Shown: in pieces, positions 508 through 50,950 of the stretch
How positions within the stretch are numbered: the stretch's first letter is position 1
How the letters are laid out: each line of letters starts with the position of its first letter
Virus record (IMG/VR): IMGVR_UViG_3300017987_000073
Span: 1 to 64,000 of that record
Length of the DNA: 64,000 nucleotides
Reading direction: 5' to 3' (one strand)
Origin: a virus
Program-made: the position numbers and the translations under genes
Notes under the pieces: model-generated
Told to the model about the DNA's origin: nothing
Seen by the model: the letters and a program-made list of their open reading frames with translations, nothing else
Database searches by the model: none

Positions 508-855
508 CTACCTCGTGTAGTGGGCGACCCACGCCCGGATCCAGCTCGCCATCCGCGCGAGCCCCTCGTCCGAGGAGTCCCGCACGTGGGACCAGTCCCA
601 CAGCATCGTGGAGACCGACCCCGCGGGGAACACGCCCGAGGAGAGGTCCCCGAACCCGTCCGCCAAGAAGCGGACCGCCCCGTGCTCCTGGTTCGTCAAG
701 AGGGAGTAGAAGGTCCCGTCCCAGTGGAGGAACCGGAGGACCAGGTTCCAGTCGTCGTCGCCCGTCATCCGGGAGACGTCCAGGAGCCCCGCGGCCGCGG
801 CCGGGGAGATCGAGAAGTTGTCGTTGCGGGTCGGGAAGTTGAAGGAACTGGACAT
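508..855 (-). CDS. hypothetical protein, 115 residues, first gene of the leftward transcript
   Basis: The chosen start is the ATG at 855, with an AAGGAGG Shine-Dalgarno five bases upstream. An in-frame ATG at 903 coincides with the predicted transcription start and would add 16 residues. The protein (MSSSFNFPTRND...) is rich in aromatic residues, with a WDWSHVRDSSDEGL segment and a C-terminal tryptophan pair. I do not recognise the family. It is driven by a promoter divergent from the rightward genes and followed by a GC hairpin. Confidence 0.75.
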   Translation of the reverse strand: MSSSFNFPTRNDNFSISPAAAAGLLDVSRMTGDDDWNLVLRFLHWDGTFYSLLTNQEHGAVRFLADGFGDLSSGVFPAGSVSTMLWDWSHVRDSSDEGLARMASWIRAWVAHYTR

Positions 856-902
856 TTGGTCCTCCTTGGTTGGGGTTTGAAGTTCGTTTCGTCCGTCGCT
901 CA

Positions 903-937
903 TAATATAATCTTGACACGCGATAAGATTTAGTCAA
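903..937 (-). promoter_or_regulatory. leftward sigma70-type promoter
   Basis: On the minus strand TTGACT (937-932) is separated by 17 bp from AAGATT (914-909), and an ATG begins five bases after the -10 hexamer, at 903. The layout matches the three rightward cassettes, including an A-tract flanked by ATACACTT motifs upstream and the bases ATGAGCGACGG at the predicted start of transcription. Confidence 0.7.
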
Positions 938-1052
938 GGGGGAAGTGTATTTTTTTTTCAGAAAAGTGTATAGAAAAAATCCCCGAGTAGCTCCCTCTTC
1001 TAATTGTTCAGTCGTTGTCGATAGATACACTTTTTCAAAAAAAAATACAGTT
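938..1052. promoter_or_regulatory. operator-like region between divergent promoters
   Basis: This AT-rich stretch holds paired 8-mers upstream of each -35. For the leftward promoter they are AAGTGTAT at 943-950 and 964-971. For the rightward one they are ATACACTT at 1025-1032 and ATACAGTT at 1045-1052. The members of a pair start 20-21 bp apart, about two helical turns, with a run of nine A or T between them. The pattern fits a tandem repressor or activator site, or an UP element with A-tracts. The protein that binds is unknown. Confidence 0.5.
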
Positions 1053-1104
1053 TCCCTATTGACCTAATCTTTCCCTGTGCTAAGATTTAAATATGAACGA
1101 CGGA
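984..1104 (+). repeat. 121-bp promoter-bearing direct repeat, copy 1
   Basis: This stretch matches 1797-1917 with a single mismatch (C in TTTCCCTA here, A there). The repeat begins with CGAGTAG. In copy 2 those bases are the last codons and stop of a gene; here they are non-coding, which suggests this copy was duplicated from the end of a gene. Confidence 0.85.
1059..1093 (+). promoter_or_regulatory. rightward promoter, cassette 1
   Basis: TTGACC at 1059-1064 and TAAGAT at 1081-1086 are 16 bp apart, and an ATG starts seven bases after the -10, at 1093. That is where transcription would begin, so the mRNA may be leaderless at this ATG, while an SD-preceded ATG at 1126 lies in the same frame. 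Confidence 0.75.
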
Positions 1105-1125
1105 ACAACGACGAAGGAGAGCACG

Positions 1126-1620
1126 ATGAAAACCACGAAAGAGATCGCCCAGGGTATCCGAAAAGCCCTCAAGTCCCGCGGTTGGAGCGCGCGTCAGGTC
1201 AGCGTCCGGGTCCGTCACCTCGGCGTGGATTCCGGACTCGCGGTCAAAGTTCGCGACGCGGGCGTCCCCCTGGCGGAGGTCCGGGAGATCGCGAAGAGTC
1301 ACGAGAGCGTCGACCGCGATTCGGAGACCGGCGAGATCCTGCTCGGCGGGAACCTGTACGTCGACGTGGACTACACCTCGGAGGCGCTCGAGCCGACGAA
1401 AGCCGAGATCCTGGCGAAGCTGGAGGCGGCCGACGAGGGCGAGCTCGTGGAGCTCGAGAACGGGCTGAAGCTCCGGCGGATCGACCGGTACTACTGGCGG
1501 ATCGACCACGCGAAGTGGAACCGCGACCGGGTATGCTGGGGCGCCGATTTCGCCGCCCAGCAAGCGGCCGAGATCACCCTCGGCGAGGACGTCGAGAACC
1601 TGTACCCGATCGCGGAGTAG
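1126..1620 (+). CDS. LPD29-like hypothetical protein
   Basis: The start at 1126 has AAGGAG seven bases upstream; an in-frame ATG at 1093 would add 11 residues. The 164-residue protein opens with KEIAQGIRKALKSRGWSARQ, followed by strands with VSVRVRHLG and a GEILLGGNLYVDVDY segment. This resembles the LPD29 (large polyvalent protein associated) domain seen in phage and mobile-element proteins, whose role is unknown. It is the first gene of the rightward block, so probably early-expressed. The family link is from memory of the pattern, not from a search. Confidence 0.75.
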   Translation: MKTTKEIAQGIRKALKSRGWSARQVSVRVRHLGVDSGLAVKVRDAGVPLAEVREIAKSHESVDRDSETGEILLGGNLYVDVDYTSEALEPTKAEILAKLEAADEGELVELENGLKLRRIDRYYWRIDHAKWNRDRVCWGADFAAQQAAEITLGEDVENLYPIAE

Positions 1621-1629
1621 GGGGCCACG

Positions 1630-1803
1630 ATGAAGATCACAGTGACCGCCAAGTTCAAGCGCGCCGTGTTCACCTGGGACGAGGAGCTCGAGACCTGCAC
1701 CGTGGACGCGATCGGGTTCGAGGAGGGGGAGCTCGACCTCCTCGTGGAGGCCAAGGTCCACGAGGGGGCTGATCTGGAGGGGTACCTCGTGGAGGTCGAG
1801 TAG
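1630..1803 (+). CDS. short acidic protein, 57 residues
   Basis: The ATG lies nine bases after the stop of the LPD29-like gene, and the frame ends at TAG 1801-1803, inside repeat copy 2. The protein (MKITVTAKFKRAVFTWDEE...) has alternating strands and a Glu-rich C-terminus ending GYLVEVE. Upstream GGGG is a weak RBS, so coupling to the previous gene is likely. No family is recognised. Confidence 0.6.
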   Translation: MKITVTAKFKRAVFTWDEELETCTVDAIGFEEGELDLLVEAKVHEGADLEGYLVEVE

Positions 1804-1917
1804 CTCCCTCTTCTAATTGTTCAGTCGTTGTCGATAGATACACTTTTTCAAAAAAAAATACAGTTTCACTATTGACCTAATCTTTCCCTGTGCTAAGATT
1901 TAAATATGAACGACGGA
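1797..1917 (+). repeat. 121-bp promoter-bearing direct repeat, copy 2
   Basis: This is the same sequence as 984-1104 with one mismatch. It includes the final codons and stop of the gene at 1630-1803 and the promoter of the next gene. Recombination between the two copies would neatly delete the intervening two-gene cassette. Confidence 0.85.
1872..1906 (+). promoter_or_regulatory. rightward promoter, cassette 2
   Basis: TTGACC at 1872-1877 and TAAGAT at 1894-1899 are 16 bp apart, with an ATG at 1906 at the expected transcription start. The paired ATACACTT and ATACAGTT motifs sit upstream at 1838-1845 and 1858-1865. Confidence 0.75.
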
Positions 1918-1926
1918 GGGAACAAG

Positions 1927-2247
1927 ATGAACGACGCCACCCAGACCGCAGTCCTCGCCCTGACCGTTTACCAGACCGCCCTCGCCGCCCTCGGCCACAA
2001 GTTCTCCCTGGGGGTCGACGGCTCCGTCGAGCTCGAGGCGAACCCCGAGCGCGCCGGCCGCTGGGGCGAGGTGACCGAGGAGGACCACCGGATCGCGGAG
2101 GACGCGGTCCGCGCCGCCTGGGACGCCGGCGAGCGGTCCGGTCGGGTCCTCGGGGTGGTGCTCCACCCGGACACGGACGAGATCGTGCCCCGGAACGACG
2201 AGGTCCCCCCGCCCATCGGACAGTGGTCGACCTACCAGGAGGTGTGA
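1927..2247 (+). CDS. hypothetical early protein, 106 residues
   Basis: The start at 1927 is preceded by GGAGGG six bases away; the in-frame ATG at 1906 adds seven residues. An N-terminal helix (TAVLALTVYQTALAAL) is followed by an acidic segment, a second helix (HRIAEDAVRAAWDAGERSG) and a strand-rich tail. The stop is one base before the ATG of the next gene. The family is not recognised. Confidence 0.7.
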   Translation: MNDATQTAVLALTVYQTALAALGHKFSLGVDGSVELEANPERAGRWGEVTEEDHRIAEDAVRAAWDAGERSGRVLGVVLHPDTDEIVPRNDEVPPPIGQWSTYQEV

Positions 2248-2248
2248 G

Positions 2249-2500
2249 ATGAGCAATTTCAACGACTGGTTCGAGACCTTCCTGGAGGAGAAGAACCTCC
2301 CGTACGCGTCCTGGGAGCTCACCGCCCCTAACGGGACCCTCCACCTGATCGACTCGAACGTGGTGATCGAGGCGATCAAGGGCGCCCCGGCCGGGAAGCA
2401 AGCGGGGATCAAGGCGACGATCGTCAAGATCGACTTCCTGAACGGAGACGTCAACGACTTCTTCCGTCACCTCGCCCAAGCTTTAGTCAATAGATTCTAG
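2249..2500 (+). CDS. hypothetical phage protein, 83 residues
   Basis: This small acidic protein has the layout NDWFETFLEEKNLP, a tryptophan strand, LHLIDSNVVIEAIKGAP and a C-terminal IDFLNGDVNDFFRHLAQAL helix. Similar short proteins recur in phages without assigned function. GAGGTG overlaps the previous stop and acts as the RBS. The third base of codons turns AT-rich only in the last few codons, where the next promoter cassette begins. Confidence 0.75.
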   Translation: MSNFNDWFETFLEEKNLPYASWELTAPNGTLHLIDSNVVIEAIKGAPAGKQAGIKATIVKIDFLNGDVNDFFRHLAQALVNRF

Positions 2501-2502
2501 TT

Positions 2503-2582
2503 GATACACTTTTTCAAAAAAAAATACAGTTTCCCTATTGACCTAATCTTTCCCTGTGCTAAGATTTAAATATGAGCGACGG
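2503..2582 (+). repeat. 80-bp promoter repeat, copy 3 (shorter)
   Basis: This stretch matches 1024-1103 of copy 1 except for a G in ATGAGCGACGG. It lacks the upstream 40 bp shared by copies 1 and 2, so it belongs to the same family but has an older or separate junction. Confidence 0.85.
2538..2572 (+). promoter_or_regulatory. rightward promoter, cassette 3
   Basis: TTGACC at 2538-2543 and TAAGAT at 2560-2565 are separated by 16 bp, with an ATG at 2572 as the likely 5' end of the mRNA. It drives the six-gene run ending at 4141. Confidence 0.75.
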
Positions 2583-2604
2583 GGGAAACAAAAAGGAGGA
2601 CGAG

Positions 2605-2922
2605 ATGGAGTTCACGATCAACGCCCTGTTCCTGGTACTCAACGCCGACCTGATCGCCCGGTTCCACCGGGTGTGGAGGCTCCGCCTCCGCCGCGCCGAG
2701 CGCGCTTGGGCGCTCGGTCTCCCGACCTCCTCCTACGACCTCGGGCTGGAGACTCAGCTCGAGAACCTCCTCGCCGCCCACCCCGAGGTGGTCCACGCCG
2801 CGAGCTCCTCCTTCGACTGGGAGGGTGAGCGCGCGGCCGCGGAGCGCGCCTGTCTGAAGCGAGGCGAGTACTCCGACCTGACCCTCGAAGTTTACCCCGA
2901 GCTCGGTGAGGTGCTCCGATGA
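2605..2922 (+). CDS. hypothetical early protein, 105 residues
   Basis: The start at 2605 has AAGGAGG five bases upstream, and the in-frame ATG at 2572 would add 11 residues. The N-terminus is a hydrophobic MEFTINALFLVLNADLIARF helix followed by an Arg-rich stretch, and the rest is helical. It could be membrane-associated, but the hydrophobic stretch is short. The stop overlaps the next ATG. Confidence 0.65.
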   Translation: MEFTINALFLVLNADLIARFHRVWRLRLRRAERAWALGLPTSSYDLGLETQLENLLAAHPEVVHAASSSFDWEGERAAAERACLKRGEYSDLTLEVYPELGEVLR

Positions 2923-36597: not shown

Positions 36598-39411
36598 TCA
36601 CCCCTCTATAACCGCGATGCGGACGCGCGGCGACCTGCGGAGTTCGTCCAGCTCTGGAGGTCCGAGAACCCCCTTCGGGTTCGCCCGGATCTGATCGATC
36701 GCCTTCTGGACCTTCTTCGGGTCCCGAAGCCACTTCTTGTAACGATCGACCAACTTGACTCGTCGCTTCCGCTGCGAGACGAGCCACCGCGTCCAGTCCT
36801 TGCCCGGGTAAACCACCTCCAGGATCCGCTGAGACGCCGGATAAATCACCTTGTCCCAGTAGTACTCGGGGTCGTAGGTGATCTCGTCGCTCTCCTCGTA
36901 CTCGTCCCTGGTCACCCCCTGGAGAGGAGACCCGGACTTCGTCACCACGTACTCAACCTTCATCCCGACGAAGAACTCCCGCCCGTGCTCCCGGATCTGC
37001 TCCGCCAACTTCACGTGGAGGGATTGACTCTTGTACCTGTCCGGCTCCTTGCTGATCCCCTTCCCGATCACCACGTCGTCGACCGTGAGCTCCCCGGCCA
37101 GACAACTGTCGAACGCCGGCTCGACGATCTCCCGCTCCATCTCGTCCGCGTCGATCCCCTTCATCAGGATCGCGTCGAGCACCGCCTTCTGGAGAACCCG
37201 CGTCTTCCCCGAGCAGTCCGAGCGCATCACCTCGAGCCCCTTGACCTCGACGTGGTCGGTCTTCCCGCCCTTGTGAGACAGCATCCGGCCGGCGTACCGC
37301 TTCTTCTTGACGAAGAAGATCCGGTCGAAGATATCCTCGAACTCCAGGAGGATCGCGTTCCACTCCAGGTTGCAGTTGCACTCCTTCAGGATCTCGACGT
37401 ACCGCTCCTGACAGTAATCGACGAACCGCTCCCCGATCGCGTTGAGCTCGGCGATCCGCTCCTCCTCCGTCGCCCACTCCTGGTCGGTCGGCGCCAGTTG
37501 GATGTACACCGAGTCCGTGTCACCGTAGAGCGGCGCGAACCCGTTGGCCCGGGCGAACTTCTCGGTCAGTTTGATGAAGAACTGACCGGAAAGGGTGATC
37601 GCCTCCGCTAACTCCGTGTCGTAGAACCGACTCCTCGAGTTCCCCATGTCACCGTAGAAGGACAGCCCGAGCCTCTTGAACGAGTAGGCGAGTCGGTAGT
37701 ACAGGAGGAACAGATCGTCCTGAGTCGTCCCCACCACCTCGAGCCGCTGCTTCTGGAGGTCGGTGTACTTCTTCCGCCGCTCGAGCGTCCTCTCGAACAT
37801 CTGGGAGATGTACCCCTGTTGATCGATCCGAAAGGTTGTCCCACCCTTGTGAACGACGACCGGCGACCCATCTTCACCCACCTTGTCCAGATCTATCTCA
37901 GGGATCCTGCACAGTTGCGTGGGGTCGAAATCCGGCCGAGATTCGGTCTTGACTATCGTCTCCGGCGAAATGTTGAAAGCCCGCACCATCGACGGGTACA
38001 GGCTCTTGAAGTCGAACGCCGCCACGTTTCGGTGCATCCCCACCTGGGGCGGGAAGACGTAAGCCCCCTCGTACTGGTCCGGCTTCCTCGGCGACCAGTA
38101 CCTCGTCCGGAAGTGATGACCCTCCTTGAAGCCCTTCTTCAGGAGAAGCTGATCCACCTTGGTGGAGATCTGGAAGTCGTTGGGAAACCCGTTGGCGATC
38201 CGGCAGAAGAGCTGCTCCACCATCACGAACCCGGTGAACGCCTCGAGCTTCCGGAGGATCGTCGAGTCCAACCGGTTGTACTCCTCCAGAAGCTCCGGCT
38301 CGTACCGGTACAGGTTGATGAACTTCGGCGTGATCCCCGGCCGCCGCTCCCGGAAGATCGTCCTCCAGTCCAGCTTCTTGATCTTCAGGACCTTGTCCCC
38401 GATCGAGTCCAGCGAGAACGAGATCGCGTCCCCACCGGCGCGGACGTAGTGCCGCTTGAAGATCGGCAGGGGGTCCACGAGGAGGTTGTACCTCCAGTCG
38501 ACGAAGATCTTGTGGTGGTAGAATCGATAGATCAGGACCGGGAAGTCGAACCCCGTCCCGTTCCACGCGCAGTGGACGTCGTACTTGCTCAGGCACCGCC
38601 TCTTGAACTCGAGAAGCATCTCCCGCTCGGCCTCGTCCGTCTCCTCCCGCAGGATCACGAAGCCCTGGTCGTCGGGGTCGTCCTCGACCCGGTCCCCCTC
38701 CCACGCTATCGACAGGATCCGGTTGTGCTCCTTGTTGTCGAAGCCACCGACGGAGTCGTCCGTCTCGATGTCGATGAATCCCATGTGAAACTTGGGGTTG
38801 ATCCGAATATCGTAGTCCGTGAGGAAGCGTTGCTTCGGCGTCAGGTCCGCCTCGAGCGGCTCGACTCCCTTCCGGTCGCACCACCGGAGCGTCCAGTGAA
38901 CGTCGGTCCACCGGTCCCGGTCCTGCGGAAACCTCACCGCCTGCGGCCGCTCCCCGAGCCAGAAGGCGTCGGCCCAGTGACCCCCGTACTCCGGGTCCCC
39001 TACCCGCTGAAAGTACCGCTTCCGGTTGAACTTGGGGAAGTTCTGCTCGATGTAAACTCGATAGTAAAGCTCCGGAAAACGCGGATCAGGCTCGACCCGC
39101 TTCGCGTGGTTTCGACAGAGCCAGGCCCACTTATCCTCGGGCACCTTCCGGTAGTCCTCCGCCGTGATGTAGAAGTACCACTCGAACGGGTGGACCTCCT
39201 TCACCCGCCTCCCGGTCGCCGGGTCCCTCGTCAGGAGGACGATATCCTTCCCGTCCGACCACCCGTGGTAGTAGTAGGTGTGAGGGTTGAAGACGAAGGA
39301 GGAGTCCTTCATCTCGTCGAAGTCAGCCGCCTCCGCGAGGTCCTCGAACGCCCGCTTGTCCTTGACCTTCTTGGAGTCGATCGCCTGCTCGTACTGGGCC
39401 CGGTGCTCCAC
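36598..39411 (-). CDS. family B DNA polymerase with 3'-5' exonuclease
   Basis: From GTG 39411 the protein is 937 residues. Exonuclease motifs: GFIDIETD (Exo I), CAWNGTGFDFPVL (Exo II), YNRLDSTIL (Exo III). Polymerase motifs: DFKSLYPSM (A), FKRLGLSFYGDMGN (B) and YGDTDSVYI (C). All catalytic Asp are present. It is a phage replicative polymerase. The frame upstream stays GC3-coding to a CTG at 39462 that overlaps the previous TGA, while the first ATG is at 39312, so the start is uncertain. No intein is visible. Confidence 0.95.
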   Translation of the reverse strand: MEHRAQYEQAIDSKKVKDKRAFEDLAEAADFDEMKDSSFVFNPHTYYYHGWSDGKDIVLLTRDPATGRRVKEVHPFEWYFYITAEDYRKVPEDKWAWLCRNHAKRVEPDPRFPELYYRVYIEQNFPKFNRKRYFQRVGDPEYGGHWADAFWLGERPQAVRFPQDRDRWTDVHWTLRWCDRKGVEPLEADLTPKQRFLTDYDIRINPKFHMGFIDIETDDSVGGFDNKEHNRILSIAWEGDRVEDDPDDQGFVILREETDEAEREMLLEFKRRCLSKYDVHCAWNGTGFDFPVLIYRFYHHKIFVDWRYNLLVDPLPIFKRHYVRAGGDAISFSLDSIGDKVLKIKKLDWRTIFRERRPGITPKFINLYRYEPELLEEYNRLDSTILRKLEAFTGFVMVEQLFCRIANGFPNDFQISTKVDQLLLKKGFKEGHHFRTRYWSPRKPDQYEGAYVFPPQVGMHRNVAAFDFKSLYPSMVRAFNISPETIVKTESRPDFDPTQLCRIPEIDLDKVGEDGSPVVVHKGGTTFRIDQQGYISQMFERTLERRKKYTDLQKQRLEVVGTTQDDLFLLYYRLAYSFKRLGLSFYGDMGNSRSRFYDTELAEAITLSGQFFIKLTEKFARANGFAPLYGDTDSVYIQLAPTDQEWATEEERIAELNAIGERFVDYCQERYVEILKECNCNLEWNAILLEFEDIFDRIFFVKKKRYAGRMLSHKGGKTDHVEVKGLEVMRSDCSGKTRVLQKAVLDAILMKGIDADEMEREIVEPAFDSCLAGELTVDDVVIGKGISKEPDRYKSQSLHVKLAEQIREHGREFFVGMKVEYVVTKSGSPLQGVTRDEYEESDEITYDPEYYWDKVIYPASQRILEVVYPGKDWTRWLVSQRKRRVKLVDRYKKWLRDPKKVQKAIDQIRANPKGVLGPPELDELRRSPRVRIAVIEG

Positions 39412-39458
39412 CTTCTCCGAGAGGTCGTCCTCGAGCGCCTGGGTGTCCGAGTCCTGGA

Positions 39459-40046
39459 TCAGGTCAGCGCCGGCTCGAAAGCCTCCCTGATCCTCCTCGC
39501 GTCCCTCTCCAGGTTCGTCCACTTCCGAAGCGTCGAGATCGGGTGACGCAGGAGCACCGCCTCCGCGAGCGTCCCGTCCACCCTCCTCCGACTCCCGAAG
39601 TCGCTTAACCCGAGGGGGGCGCCCGCCGCCCTCCCGAAGACCAAAACCCTCCTCAAGTTCGGAAGGATCTCCAGTTCTCTCCTCAAGTGAATCTTCCAGC
39701 ACGTCTCGACCTCCTCCGGTCTGAGTTCTCGGTTCCCCGGCGTCGCGCACTTCACCGCGTTCGTCGCGTAGACCTCCCGAAGGTCCAGCTCGGCGACCCT
39801 CGACAGATGCCAGAACGCCCGCGCCGCCCCGCGGAGCTTCAGCGCGGCCGCCCTGGACCCGAGCCGCCCGAGGAGCGGCGCCAAAAAGCACCCCACGCAC
39901 CCCCACCCCTCGGCCACGACAGATGGGTTCAACCCCACGACCGCGATCCTCGCCCCCGCCGGCCCGTACCCGACGCACCTCGGGAGACCGAGGTCACCGA
40001 GCCCGCAGGCGCGGCAAGCTCCGGTTCTTCTCAAGAGCACTCGCAC
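39459..40046 (-). CDS. uracil-DNA glycosylase superfamily, type 4/5-like
   Basis: The 195-residue protein has CRACGLGDLGLPRCVGYGPA, RIAVVGLNPS and, later, TNAVKCATPGNRELRPEEVE with a final LLRHPIS motif. This is the family 4 UDG layout, with cysteines that could hold an Fe-S cluster. It excises uracil, or possibly another base, from DNA. It overlaps the kinase gene by 53 nt; GTG 40046 is one of several close starts. Presence alongside ThyX and dCMP deaminase suggests uracil surveillance. Confidence 0.8.
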   Translation of the reverse strand: MRVLLRRTGACRACGLGDLGLPRCVGYGPAGARIAVVGLNPSVVAEGWGCVGCFLAPLLGRLGSRAAALKLRGAARAFWHLSRVAELDLREVYATNAVKCATPGNRELRPEEVETCWKIHLRRELEILPNLRRVLVFGRAAGAPLGLSDFGSRRRVDGTLAEAVLLRHPISTLRKWTNLERDARRIREAFEPALT

Positions 40047-44943: not shown

Positions 44944-45660
44944 CTAACCGGCGACTTGTGCGGCCTCCTCCTCCGCCTTGAGCCGAGAGAGACGCTCGTA
45001 GGTCAGGAGGACGGACCGCACGTTCGAGGCGTACCAGATCCCCCCGTTTTTCGACTTCACGCCCCGGTTGTTCAGCCGCTCGGCGATCGCGTGGTAAGGG
45101 AACCCGCTCTCCCGGAGCTGCACCATCCGCAGGAGAACCTTCATCTCGGGCCCGTGCTCGACGAGCTGCTTCCCCTCCTTGGCGAACCCGAAGGGCGTCT
45201 TCCCGTAGACCCGCCGCTGGCGCGCGCACCGCTCCGAGGCGTCCCGGCACCTCCGGGAGATCTGCTCCCGCTCCATCTCGGCGACCGCAGCGAGGATCGT
45301 GAGGGTGAATCTCCCGTGAGGCGTCGAGGAGTCGATCTGCTCCCGGACACTCACGAACCCGCGACCAGCGCGCTGGAGCTGGGATACCAACCCCAAAAAG
45401 TCCAGCACCGACCGGGAGAGTCGATCGATCGCGTAGACGATCAGGGCGTCCGCCTCCCCGTCCAGGACCCGCTCGAACGCCTCCCGCACCCCCGGCCGGT
45501 TTAGAGACTTCCCGCTCTTCCCCTCGTCCCGGATCACGTCCACGATCTCCGCGTCGACCAGGTCGGCGTAGGACCTTATCTTCGCCTCCTGGTCCGCGAG
45601 GGAAACCCCGTTCTTCGCTTGGTGAGCCGTAGATACCCGAATATACGAGATTAGCTTCAT
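44944..45660 (-). CDS. serine recombinase (resolvase/invertase-type)
   Basis: The 238-residue protein opens KLISYIRVSTAHQAKNGVSL (catalytic Ser in RVST), has DEGKSGKSLNRPGVREAFER and YAIDRLSRSVLDFLGLVSQL, and then FSLT-like and FGFAKEGKQLVEHGPEMKVL parts of a recombinase domain, ending with an HTH-like LNNRGVKSKNGG. It is shorter than large serine integrases (about 450 or more) and longer than Tn3 resolvases (about 185). It may integrate, resolve or invert DNA. RBS is GGGAGGTGG. Confidence 0.85.
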   Translation of the reverse strand: MKLISYIRVSTAHQAKNGVSLADQEAKIRSYADLVDAEIVDVIRDEGKSGKSLNRPGVREAFERVLDGEADALIVYAIDRLSRSVLDFLGLVSQLQRAGRGFVSVREQIDSSTPHGRFTLTILAAVAEMEREQISRRCRDASERCARQRRVYGKTPFGFAKEGKQLVEHGPEMKVLLRMVQLRESGFPYHAIAERLNNRGVKSKNGGIWYASNVRSVLLTYERLSRLKAEEEAAQVAG

Positions 45661-45675
45661 CTCTCCACCTCCCTT

Positions 45676-45734
45676 ATACACTTATTGTAGCAGTTTAATA
45701 CAGTTTGTAAAGGGAAGTGTACAACTAAGTGTAC
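45676..45734. promoter_or_regulatory. four operator-like 8-mers around the recombinase promoter
   Basis: ATACACTT at 45676-45683, ATACAGTT at 45698-45705, and AAGTGTAC at 45715-45722 and 45727-45734 form pairs facing each other. Two cover the promoter core and two lie upstream. This fits autoregulation, or the recombinase's own crossover/accessory sites (res-like). Confidence 0.5.
45684..45711 (-). promoter_or_regulatory. sigma70-type promoter of the recombinase
   Basis: TTTACA (45711-45706) and TACAAT (45689-45684) are separated by 16 bp on the minus strand. It starts the mRNA about 17-20 nt before ATG 45660. Confidence 0.65.
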
Positions 45735-45735
45735 G

Positions 45736-46350
45736 TCACTCGACGTAGGTCTTCCGGAGGGCGTCGACGTCGCGCGAGGAGAAGGCGGTTCCGCCGCCGT
45801 CGAGAGTGGGGTACATGATCGAGGACCTCTCCCGATCGTGGTCGAGCCCGAAGACGTGCCCGAACTCGTGGAGCGCGGCCCGCCGGAGGGTCTCCCCCTC
45901 GAGCTCGCGGTCGAAGCTCACCGTCGCGGAGAGGATCCTCCCGTCCCGCTTGTCGAAGCGGTGCTGAGTCACCGCCCCGTGGCTCTCGACGTCCTCCTCG
46001 GCGTCCCGGAGCTTGAGGTAAACCGACCCGTCCGGAGCCCACCTGAGCGCCTCCTGGAGCGCCCAGGGGACGCAGGGACCCAAGAGGTCGCCGACCTCCC
46101 GCTTGACCTCCTGGCGGACGCTCTCGTAAGCCTCCAGGTACTTCCCGGGCAGGTCCGCCGCGTGGAAGCAGGAGATCGGAAGGTCCGAGCGCGTCCACTT
46201 GAGCTCGTGTCCGTCCCGCTCCAGAAAAGTGAGGTCCCCCGGCCGGACGATCAGAGCGTAGATCACCCCACCGACCGAGAGTATCGCGATCGCCGCGCCG
46301 ATCCACGCCGTCCAAGGGTCAGTTTTGAACAAGCTCAGCAACCACTTCAC
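45736..46350 (-). CDS. membrane-anchored metzincin-type metalloprotease
   Basis: The 204-residue protein (GTG 46350 overlapping the upstream stop) has an N-terminal hydrophobic helix at about 16-35 (WIGAAIAILSVGGVIYALIV). A HEFGHVFGLDH motif (161-171) and downstream SIMY Met-turn (177-180) match the matrixin/metzincin zinc site HExxHxxGxxH. The region before is matrixin-like (LSATVSFDREL). Phage matrixin-like proteins are uncommon. It may cleave surface proteins or act on host envelope. It lies next to the recombinase. Confidence 0.8.
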   Translation of the reverse strand: MKWLLSLFKTDPWTAWIGAAIAILSVGGVIYALIVRPGDLTFLERDGHELKWTRSDLPISCFHAADLPGKYLEAYESVRQEVKREVGDLLGPCVPWALQEALRWAPDGSVYLKLRDAEEDVESHGAVTQHRFDKRDGRILSATVSFDRELEGETLRRAALHEFGHVFGLDHDRERSSIMYPTLDGGGTAFSSRDVDALRKTYVE

Positions 46351-49689: not shown

Positions 49690-50950
49690 TTCTCCTTCGC
49701 TCCCTCTCTGCGATCACGCGCTCCCAGTTCTCTCGAGTCCCGGCCCGGTCGTTGACCTCCCGAAGCGTCTCGCGCCGACCGCCGGCGTTCCTTCCCCTTC
49801 TATCCAAAATGTCCAGAAGCGTCTGAGGATTACTCGGGGTGAAAAAGTAGTTGAAGCTCACCGGTTGCCCCCGAGCTTCCGCCCGCTCCAGAATCGCGTC
49901 GATCGCGTCCCTCGCTCGAGCTCGATCCCCCTTCAGGTGTCGGTTCGTGAAGCTCGCCGCGTTCTTCGCCGAGGCGGCGATCGCCCGGTTCTTCACCCCG
50001 GCCGCGTAGAAGTTCTCGTCCTCCTCCCCAAACGCCGCCAGGTACTTCGTCACCCAGTACCCCACGAGGTCCATCCCGGACCACATCTTCACCAACCTCG
50101 AAGCGTGAGCGGAGAGTTCCCACCGCTTCGAGGGGGTTTCTGCGAGCTCGGGTCCGCTCGGGGGTCGAAGTTGCTTCACCCTCCTCCCCGAGCTCCTCGC
50201 CTCCCTCTCCGCGATCTTTTCCGCGGCCCGCTTCAAACCCTCGGGCGAGTCCTTGTCGTGAGTGTCCTCGATCTCCTCGTCCCCCAACTCCTCGTCTCCG
50301 GATTCCTCGAGCTCGTACACTTTCTTTCCTCGTCCGGGGTGTGTATCAGATTTCTCCTCGTTCACTTTCGCTCGAGGTGATTCACCTCGAGCTAACATAG
50401 AACTCTTATCCTCTACTCTTAAAGATCTCTTATTGGGGGTGTCAGTTTGACGCACCCCCCTGTGTTGTTTTGACGCACCCCCCCTGTGTTGTTTTGACGC
50501 ACCCCCTTCGTCCTCTTGGGGTGCGTCGTTTTGACGCACCCCCCTGCGTTGATTCGCCGCACCCCCCTCTGTACACTTGCTCTCGTCTAGGGTCTGTACG
50601 CGATCATCAGCGGTCCGATCGCGGGCCTTCTCGGTGAGGAACTTCTCGTTCGAGGGGTCGTCCAACCACTCCGGCCAGAGCGGCTTGACGTCCACGAGGT
50701 GCATCCCGCGCCTCCGCTTCCGCCGGCGCTCGACCAGGCCGAGGTCCTCCAGCTTGTCGAGGATCCGATTCACGTTTCTGCGGTCGTCGATCCCGGACAC
50801 CTCGGCCAACTTCTTGATGCTGAGGTTGTTTCTCTTCATCTCGTCCCACGTGTGGATCACCGACCAGAGGTACTTGTCCCGAAAGGTCAGATCCTTGCAG
50901 TGAGCGATCGGAGCTGGGATCTGATAGAATACGTAATCCTTGGAGTTCAC
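49673..50950 (-). CDS. replication initiator-like winged-helix protein with iterons in its gene
   Basis: The 425-residue protein starts at GTG 50950, overlapping the upstream TGA. Residues 1-90 form a winged helix (DKYLWSVIHTWDEMKRNNLS, LAEVSGIDDRRNVNRILDKL, EDLGLVERRRKRRRG). Residues about 125-175 are repeated GGASKQHRG, coded by the iteron repeats. The C-terminus (NYFFTPSNPQTLLDILDRRG) looks DnaD-like or adaptor-like. As with lambda O, it would bind the repeats and recruit the loader-helicase. Overlap with the loader is 17 nt. Confidence 0.75.
   Translation of the reverse strand: MNSKDYVFYQIPAPIAHCKDLTFRDKYLWSVIHTWDEMKRNNLSIKKLAEVSGIDDRRNVNRILDKLEDLGLVERRRKRRRGMHLVDVKPLWPEWLDDPSNEKFLTEKARDRTADDRVQTLDESKCTEGGAANQRRGVRQNDAPQEDEGGASKQHRGGASKQHRGVRQTDTPNKRSLRVEDKSSMLARGESPRAKVNEEKSDTHPGRGKKVYELEESGDEELGDEEIEDTHDKDSPEGLKRAAEKIAEREARSSGRRVKQLRPPSGPELAETPSKRWELSAHASRLVKMWSGMDLVGYWVTKYLAAFGEEDENFYAAGVKNRAIAASAKNAASFTNRHLKGDRARARDAIDAILERAEARGQPVSFNYFFTPSNPQTLLDILDRRGRNAGGRRETLREVNDRAGTRENWERVIAERERRRNEGRS
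50380..50580. other. putative replication origin: iterons plus AT-rich stretch
   Basis: Five copies of a TGACGCACCCCC-type element start at 50448, 50471, 50495, 50532 and 50554, and an inverted GGGGTGCGTC copy lies at 50517-50526. The spacing is 22-24 bp except for one 37-bp interval filled by the inverted copy. An AT-rich segment at 50391-50432 adjoins them. The repeats lie within the initiator gene, as in lambdoid phage origins. The role is inferred from layout. Confidence 0.65.

Follow-up and report, generated by a model that had tools for sequence, protein, structure and literature searches.

We investigated an AT-rich promoter cassette near the left end of the window, that is, bases 1-64000 of the 80,562-base virus record IMGVR_UViG_3300017987_000073 (coded G000), where it occurs in three plus-strand copies and one minus-strand copy. 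Each copy sets an ATG at the predicted first transcribed base (+1), upstream of a second ATG that has its own Shine-Dalgarno (SD) sequence. In eight records (two of them overlapping) of related uncultured phages, 24 promoters of the same family precede an SD start, with ATG or GTG (RTG) at +1 in 17 and another codon in 7. All 17 RTG members are in frame with the SD start and have no stop between the two, at lengths of 18-51 nt, and none of the 7 other members is in frame, no length among them being divisible by three. These results suggest that the family probably carries a promoter-linked dual-initiation leader, in which a leaderless RTG start and an SD start are locked in one frame by selection.

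The paired starts and the open reading frames (ORFs) that they open in the window are as follows.

1093..1095, plus strand: predicted 5'-terminal ATG of copy 1, 6 nt after the -10
1114..1119, plus strand: SD AAGGAG of copy 1, preceding the second ATG
1126..1128, plus strand: second ATG of copy 1, 33 nt on, in frame, no stop
1093..1620, plus strand: dual-start ORF of copy 1, 175 or 164 aa
1906..1908, plus strand: predicted 5'-terminal ATG of copy 2, 6 nt after the -10
1915..1919, plus strand: SD GGAGG of copy 2, preceding the second ATG
1927..1929, plus strand: second ATG of copy 2, 21 nt on, in frame, no stop
1906..2247, plus strand: dual-start ORF of copy 2, 113 or 106 aa
2572..2574, plus strand: predicted 5'-terminal ATG of copy 3, 6 nt after the -10
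2593..2599, plus strand: SD AAGGAGG of copy 3, preceding the second ATG
2605..2607, plus strand: second ATG of copy 3, 33 nt on, in frame, no stop
2572..2922, plus strand: dual-start ORF of copy 3, 116 or 105 aa
901..903, minus strand: predicted 5'-terminal ATG of the minus copy, 6 nt after the -10, at the predicted +1
861..867, minus strand: SD AAGGAGG of the minus copy, preceding the second ATG
853..855, minus strand: second ATG of the minus copy, 48 nt downstream, in frame, no stop
508..903, minus strand: dual-start ORF of the minus copy, 131 aa from the first ATG and 115 aa from the second

The positions and sequences of both ATGs, the spacers of 33, 21, 33 and 48 nt, the separate SDs and the lack of stops were all as the initial annotation had described them. 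It had put the first ATG 5-6 bases after the -10, at the expected transcription start. The ATG does lie at the predicted start, and the gap is exactly 6 nt in 4/4 copies; the A of the first ATG is therefore the predicted +1. The chance figure of 1 in 80 given for the four in-frame pairs is invalid, because the window cassettes are not independent: three of the four are near-identical duplications that carried the first ATG along. Past the repeat, the linkers differ in part, and some frame information remains despite the duplication.

Relatives were retrieved with the polymerase (G002, G003 and G004, where G002 overlaps G003) and with a pattern including the ATG (G001). Decisive was a promoter-only search, in which the pattern (TKGAYNNNWTCTTNNYNNRTGYYAAGAT) spanned -35 to -10 and nothing was required downstream; it was then repeated with mismatches over whole records. 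This search added G005 (210 kb), G006 (39 kb) and L062 (a 6 kb contig of a metagenome-assembled genome, MAG). The mismatch-tolerant search gave matches in 8/8 records, and the reversed control pattern gave 0 matches. Beyond the known contigs, a relaxed promoter scan returned only AT-rich chance matches, and most of the 34 matches of a promoter search over genome contigs were chance occurrences within genes, such as a coding stretch conserved in actinobacteria. Every SD-preceded start ≤75 nt from a promoter was listed automatically in the eight records. The 17 sites with a +1 RTG exactly 6 nt after the -10 lie on 7 distinct contigs. An SD match of 4-7 nt stands at standard spacing before the second start in 17/17, and there is no space for an SD before the +1 RTG. 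The leader lengths of the members with RTG at +1, all in frame and open, were as follows.

G000 (window): 33, 21, 33 and 48 nt
G001: 21 nt
G003: 21 nt (same sequence in G002, counted once)
G004: 36 (GTG), 21 (ATG) and 18 (GTG) nt
G005: 21 nt
G006: 45, 42, 51, 48 and 39 nt, all GTG
L062: 30 and 45 nt

The members without RTG at +1, all out of frame, were the following (codon at +1/length in nt).

G001: ATC/20 (27982)
G005: AGT/13, AGG/16, GTC/19, GTC/20 and GTC/17
G004: AGG/11

The initial annotation had asked whether related phages keep the frame between the two starts, and the 13 further +1 RTG cases in G001, G003, G004, G005, G006 and L062 all do so, with an open linker. Three further G005 sites stand outside these lists: two, with an ATG 7 nt past the -10, seem to be purely leaderless, and one is without a clear SD start. 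At G004 102921 (minus strand) and at G005 123766 (plus strand) and 88406 (minus strand), the -10 is followed after 6-7 nt by an ATG with no clear in-frame SD start soon after (judged partly by eye). These genes are apparently purely leaderless, which is consistent with leaderless translation in these hosts.

RTG at +1 and in-frame status were associated across the sites (Fisher p = 2.9e-6, 17 versus 7 sites), when homologous leaders were collapsed to 8 families against the 7 controls (p = 1.6e-4) and when G005 was left out (p = 0.0065). In the same phages, 40% of RTGs lying 18-51 nt ahead of an SD start share its frame, and 26% share it with no stop between, which gives an empirical baseline. 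These values bear on the reading that the ATG was copied along with the promoter and that the frame is coincidental, to which the near-identical duplication of three window cassettes lends some force. However, the linkers beyond the repeat have lengths that differ in every case by a multiple of three, and 7 contigs agree; the chance expectation for the collapsed leader families is (1/3)^8 = 1.5e-4, and the members without a start codon are never in frame. Coincidence with duplication thus appears largely refuted and keeps next to no probability.

The leaders themselves point to conservation of the frame rather than of the peptide. Lengths within a family differ only by multiples of three (21, 21, 33, 33 and 48 nt in G000/G001; 39, 42, 45, 48 and 51 nt in G006; 30 and 45 nt in L062). 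Two sister cassettes of G001 differ in the third leader base and in one base of linker length: ATGAACGACGGAGGGAACGAG-ATG has ATG at +1, 21 nt and is in frame, whereas ATCAACGACGGAGGGACGAG-ATG has ATC, 20 nt and is out of frame. The ACGACGG motif starts at index 4 of the leader in G000 and at index 6 in G004, G005 and L062, and is hence read in different frames; the 21-nt total is retained in G004 and G005 despite this two-base shift from the start codon. Judged from the sequences, these are compensating indels that conserve the frame and not the peptide. The five G006 leaders begin with a common GTGAGCGGGAA and then diverge, with lengths in steps of three, and GTG takes the place of ATG at the same +1 position in G004 and G006, which matches the +1 RTG rule of mycobacteria (PMC4633059). 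The mean minimum free energy of the leaders was -5.4 kcal/mol versus -14.2 kcal/mol for random stretches of the same genomes, which places them among the least-structured 0-12% of genome windows.

We compared the protein products to locate the start of the conserved part. The second start of the 1093 gene is MKTTKEIAQGIRKALKSRGWSARQVSVRVRHLG, and its homologue L062_4929 (44% identical) starts with MTTKEAAAELRGRLKDVGFNARAVSVRVRHLG at the equivalent of the second ATG (MKTTKE... versus MTTKE...); L062_4929 is second in its operon and overlaps the preceding gene by ATGA. The 1906 gene shows 66% identity over 95 aa to G006_14608-, also the second gene of its operon; its start lies a few residues at most from the equivalent of the second ATG. 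The C-terminal part of the 508..903 product is 49% identical over 43 aa to L062_5498, which is also a cassette gene. A protein search with the 1093-gene product against viral contigs and annotated phages retrieved no relatives. The extension is missing from the two operon-internal homologues and therefore travels with the promoter, not with the protein, and its peptide is not conserved. It is improbable that the extension is part of the protein proper; it probably belongs to the promoter-proximal position. The initial annotation had offered N-terminally extended isoforms or a built-in initiation aid as the outcome. The dual start as an initiation aid is the better half of that proposal, and the extended isoforms are probably a by-product, given the unconserved peptide and the shorter homologues.

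The same comparison bears on the possibility that the first RTG is the sole start and that the second ATG with its SD is an internal accident. A single long frame is open from the first RTG in every case, but an SD-preceded ATG/GTG follows in 17/17 and is the sole start in the 7 members without a +1 RTG, and the equivalent of the second ATG is at or close to the start of both operon-internal homologues. We regard this possibility as very improbable. In regards to the converse role, the 5'-terminal AUG could serve as a standby site that captures ribosomes for the SD start and is itself untranslated, as proposed for E. coli ptrB. There, the 5' AUG is required for downstream 30S binding, its change to AUC left <8% of downstream expression and a start-stop mutant retained 40% (PMC4965119). 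Such a site requires neither frame nor an open linker, yet both are kept in 17/17 over spacers of 18-51 nt, and the standby role appears quite unlikely here.

The main rival to selection for two starts is that the promoter prefers a purine and then T at +1/+2, that the resulting RTG is unavoidably translated and that selection only purges the out-of-frame cases that interfere, with no benefit from the RTG itself. The lack of peptide conservation agrees with this account, as do the frequency of RT at +1/+2 in members that have no start codon there and the finding that out-of-frame members carry RTC (4/7; GTC three times and ATC once) and never RTG. A neutral RTG, however, would leave some in-frame leaders with RTC, RTA or RTT, whereas RTG is found in 17/17, and in-frame leaders are over-represented (17/24 versus about one third). 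Because in-frame leaders always have RTG though RTC evidently suffices for the promoter, we consider a purely passive origin unlikely.

Several observations weigh against selection for dual initiation. The single 210-kb record G005 supplies five of the seven out-of-frame controls, and many of the 17 RTG sites are paralogues or close relatives that reflect descent and duplication. The third-position GC bias of the linkers is weak after removal of the SD region (0.46/0.57/0.65), too weak to prove translation. Finally, the transcription start, the use of both starts and the benefit are features that we infer.

On the reading of dual initiation, a sigma-70-type promoter (core TKGAY-N17-AAGAT, in most cases with the TGn of an extended -10) would put the RTG exactly 6 nt past the -10, and the transcript, judged from this spacing, would begin with its start codon. 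Ribosomes would start leaderless on the 5'-terminal RUG and translate 6-17 hydrophilic, unstructured codons, crossing the SD, before they reach the gene, and other ribosomes would initiate conventionally at the SD-preceded ATG/GTG. Selection would hold both starts in a single open frame, and because both lie in one frame, leaderless initiation would add to the expression of the same protein without a clash. A slightly N-extended isoform would be the by-product, and the benefit would be robust early expression of promoter-proximal genes whatever the state of the host initiation machinery. The leaderless and SD-driven starts proposed by the initial annotation are supported as far as sequence alone can support them, and the out-of-frame family members never have a +1 start codon. 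As a more tentative proposal, to which we give somewhat less than an even chance, promoter, +1 RTG and SD leader may form a mobile, reusable module that is copied as a unit before different genes, with selection keeping one frame, so that early genes would be expressed through both 70S leaderless and 30S SD initiation. If true, such a module would be useful should initiation factors or ribosomes be altered during infection, whether by the phage or by the host.

The cassettes and promoter elements of the window are listed below.

984..1104, plus strand: cassette copy 1, the reference copy in the repeat comparison
1797..1917, plus strand: cassette copy 2, 99% identical to copy 1 over 121 nt; -35 at 1872-1877, -10 at 1894-1899
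2503..2582, plus strand: cassette copy 3, 99% identical over 80 nt; -35 at 2538-2543, -10 at 2560-2565
892..971, minus strand: diverged cassette copy, 78% identical over 80 nt
1059..1086, plus strand: promoter of copy 1; -35 TTGACC at 1059-1064, -10 TAAGAT at 1081-1086
910..937, minus strand: promoter of the minus copy; -35 TTGACT at 932-937, -10 CAAGAT at 910-915, with the TGn of an extended -10
1024..1058, plus strand: AT-rich element TACACTTTTTC-A9-TACAGTTTCCC upstream of the -35, an AT-rich island in a 66% GC genome, also in copies 2, 3 and minus
1066-1087, 1879-1900 and 2545-2566, plus strand: inverted repeat AATCTT-N10-AAGATT, conserved in the promoter core and overlapping the -10

In the window, the order is -35 (TTGACC or TTGACT), a 16-bp spacer, -10 (TAAGAT or CAAGAT) with an extended TGn, 6 nt and the ATG. 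Across the family, the hexamers and their spacing are of the sigma-70/SigA type (defined by TTGACA-like and TATAAT-like hexamers 16-18 bp apart), with TTGACC/TTGACT or TGGACA, 16 bp and TAAGAT/CAAGAT, usually with TGn. The AT-rich element may be UP-element-like or a regulator site; its equivalents lie at 1837-1871, 2503-2537 and 938-971, and TACACTT-like motifs about 20 nt apart flank the A-tract. More AAGTGTA/TACACTT copies occur at 45629-45754, upstream of a resolvase-like gene near 45690. The inverted repeat was also found in the G005 loci L096 and L099 and is almost perfect near 194413 (ATCTTAGC-GCGT-GCTAAGAT); it looks like an operator common to otherwise different phages.

The window has a GC content of 66%. 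PHROG and Pfam matches (family-B DNA polymerase, class II ribonucleotide reductase, tape measure and baseplate wedge) point to a tailed phage, probably a myovirus; the products of 1093..1620 and 2572..2922 matched no known family. The top annotated-phage matches of the polymerase (36598-39978) are haloarchaeal viruses at about 27% identity, and the promoters are nonetheless bacterial-looking. An archaeal TATA promoter, which this polymerase suggested, was rejected because the -35, the extended -10 and the strong SDs fit bacteria. A serine recombinase with a Resolvase N-terminal domain (Pfam E 1.6e-36) is encoded at 44944-45681, and the phage may therefore be temperate or carry an inversion system. 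The AT-rich gap at 50433-50572 holds at least 3 copies of a repeat with TTTTGACGCACCCCCC, possibly an origin or operator array. The small protein encoded at 2249-2500 (PHROG 6004) is 40-47% identical to proteins of many mycobacteriophages (LeBron, Archie and Thonko), and this promoter was absent from the loci with homologues of the 2249 gene (L032-L040). At about 5960-6003 of L032, from an unrelated AT-rich phage, ATGATAAACAAACACAACAAACAGGAGCAAAACATG precedes such a homologue, again with 33 nt in frame and with a different promoter, possibly by chance. The 5.1-Mb MAG in which L062 is binned encodes an RpoB that shares only 43-59% identity with the aligned reference RpoBs.

Leaderless starts, 5'-terminal AUGs on SD-led mRNAs and N-terminal isoforms are already known. 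In the open-licence papers that we found, there was no reused phage promoter cassette with a strictly frame-locked +1 RTG and SD start and with natural out-of-frame, start-less controls. The role of a 5'-end start codon on an SD-led message has so far been probed only in a few E. coli genes, picked out of frame. The 24 related promoters form a natural series in which frame and +1 start codon covary, including the G001 sister pair within one phage, and this covariation indicates that leaderless initiation from such messages would be strong enough for selection to act. The leaders are ready test constructs for the function of a 5'-terminal start codon, and start-codon annotation is liable to mis-call N-termini in these phages.

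The lambda cI leaderless mRNA is similar in that a phage regulatory promoter yields a leaderless message. To our knowledge, no paired in-frame second SD start has been described for it. Unlike the present leaders, it served as a purely leaderless control (PMC4965119). According to a 2022 review, how phage-induced changes of initiation factors affect leaderless translation is unstudied (PMC9031893). In Shigella virF (PMC5101355), two N-terminal forms likewise arise from one gene, one of them through a leaderless mRNA; in virF, the shorter form comes from the leaderless mRNA, whereas here it would be the longer form that comes from the single predicted 5' end. In mycobacteria, leaderless initiation requires a +1 RTG, which is also sufficient for it, and in-frame upstream leaderless starts have been reported to extend annotated genes (Shell et al. 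2015, PMC4633059). The phage family is similar in that an RTG at the predicted first transcribed base would define the start. Mycobacteria differ in having hundreds of out-of-frame or upstream-ORF cases, whereas in the phage family every +1 RTG is in frame and the out-of-frame members avoid it. The E. coli mRNAs studied by Beck, Fleming and Janssen (2016, PMC4965119) also have an AUG at or near the 5' end and a downstream SD-led start; such 5'-terminal AUGs are bound by 70S ribosomes and translated, and for some genes they can raise expression from the SD start. The 13 tested there were picked for an out-of-frame AUG, whereas the phage cases are all in frame, include GUG and belong to a reused promoter module.

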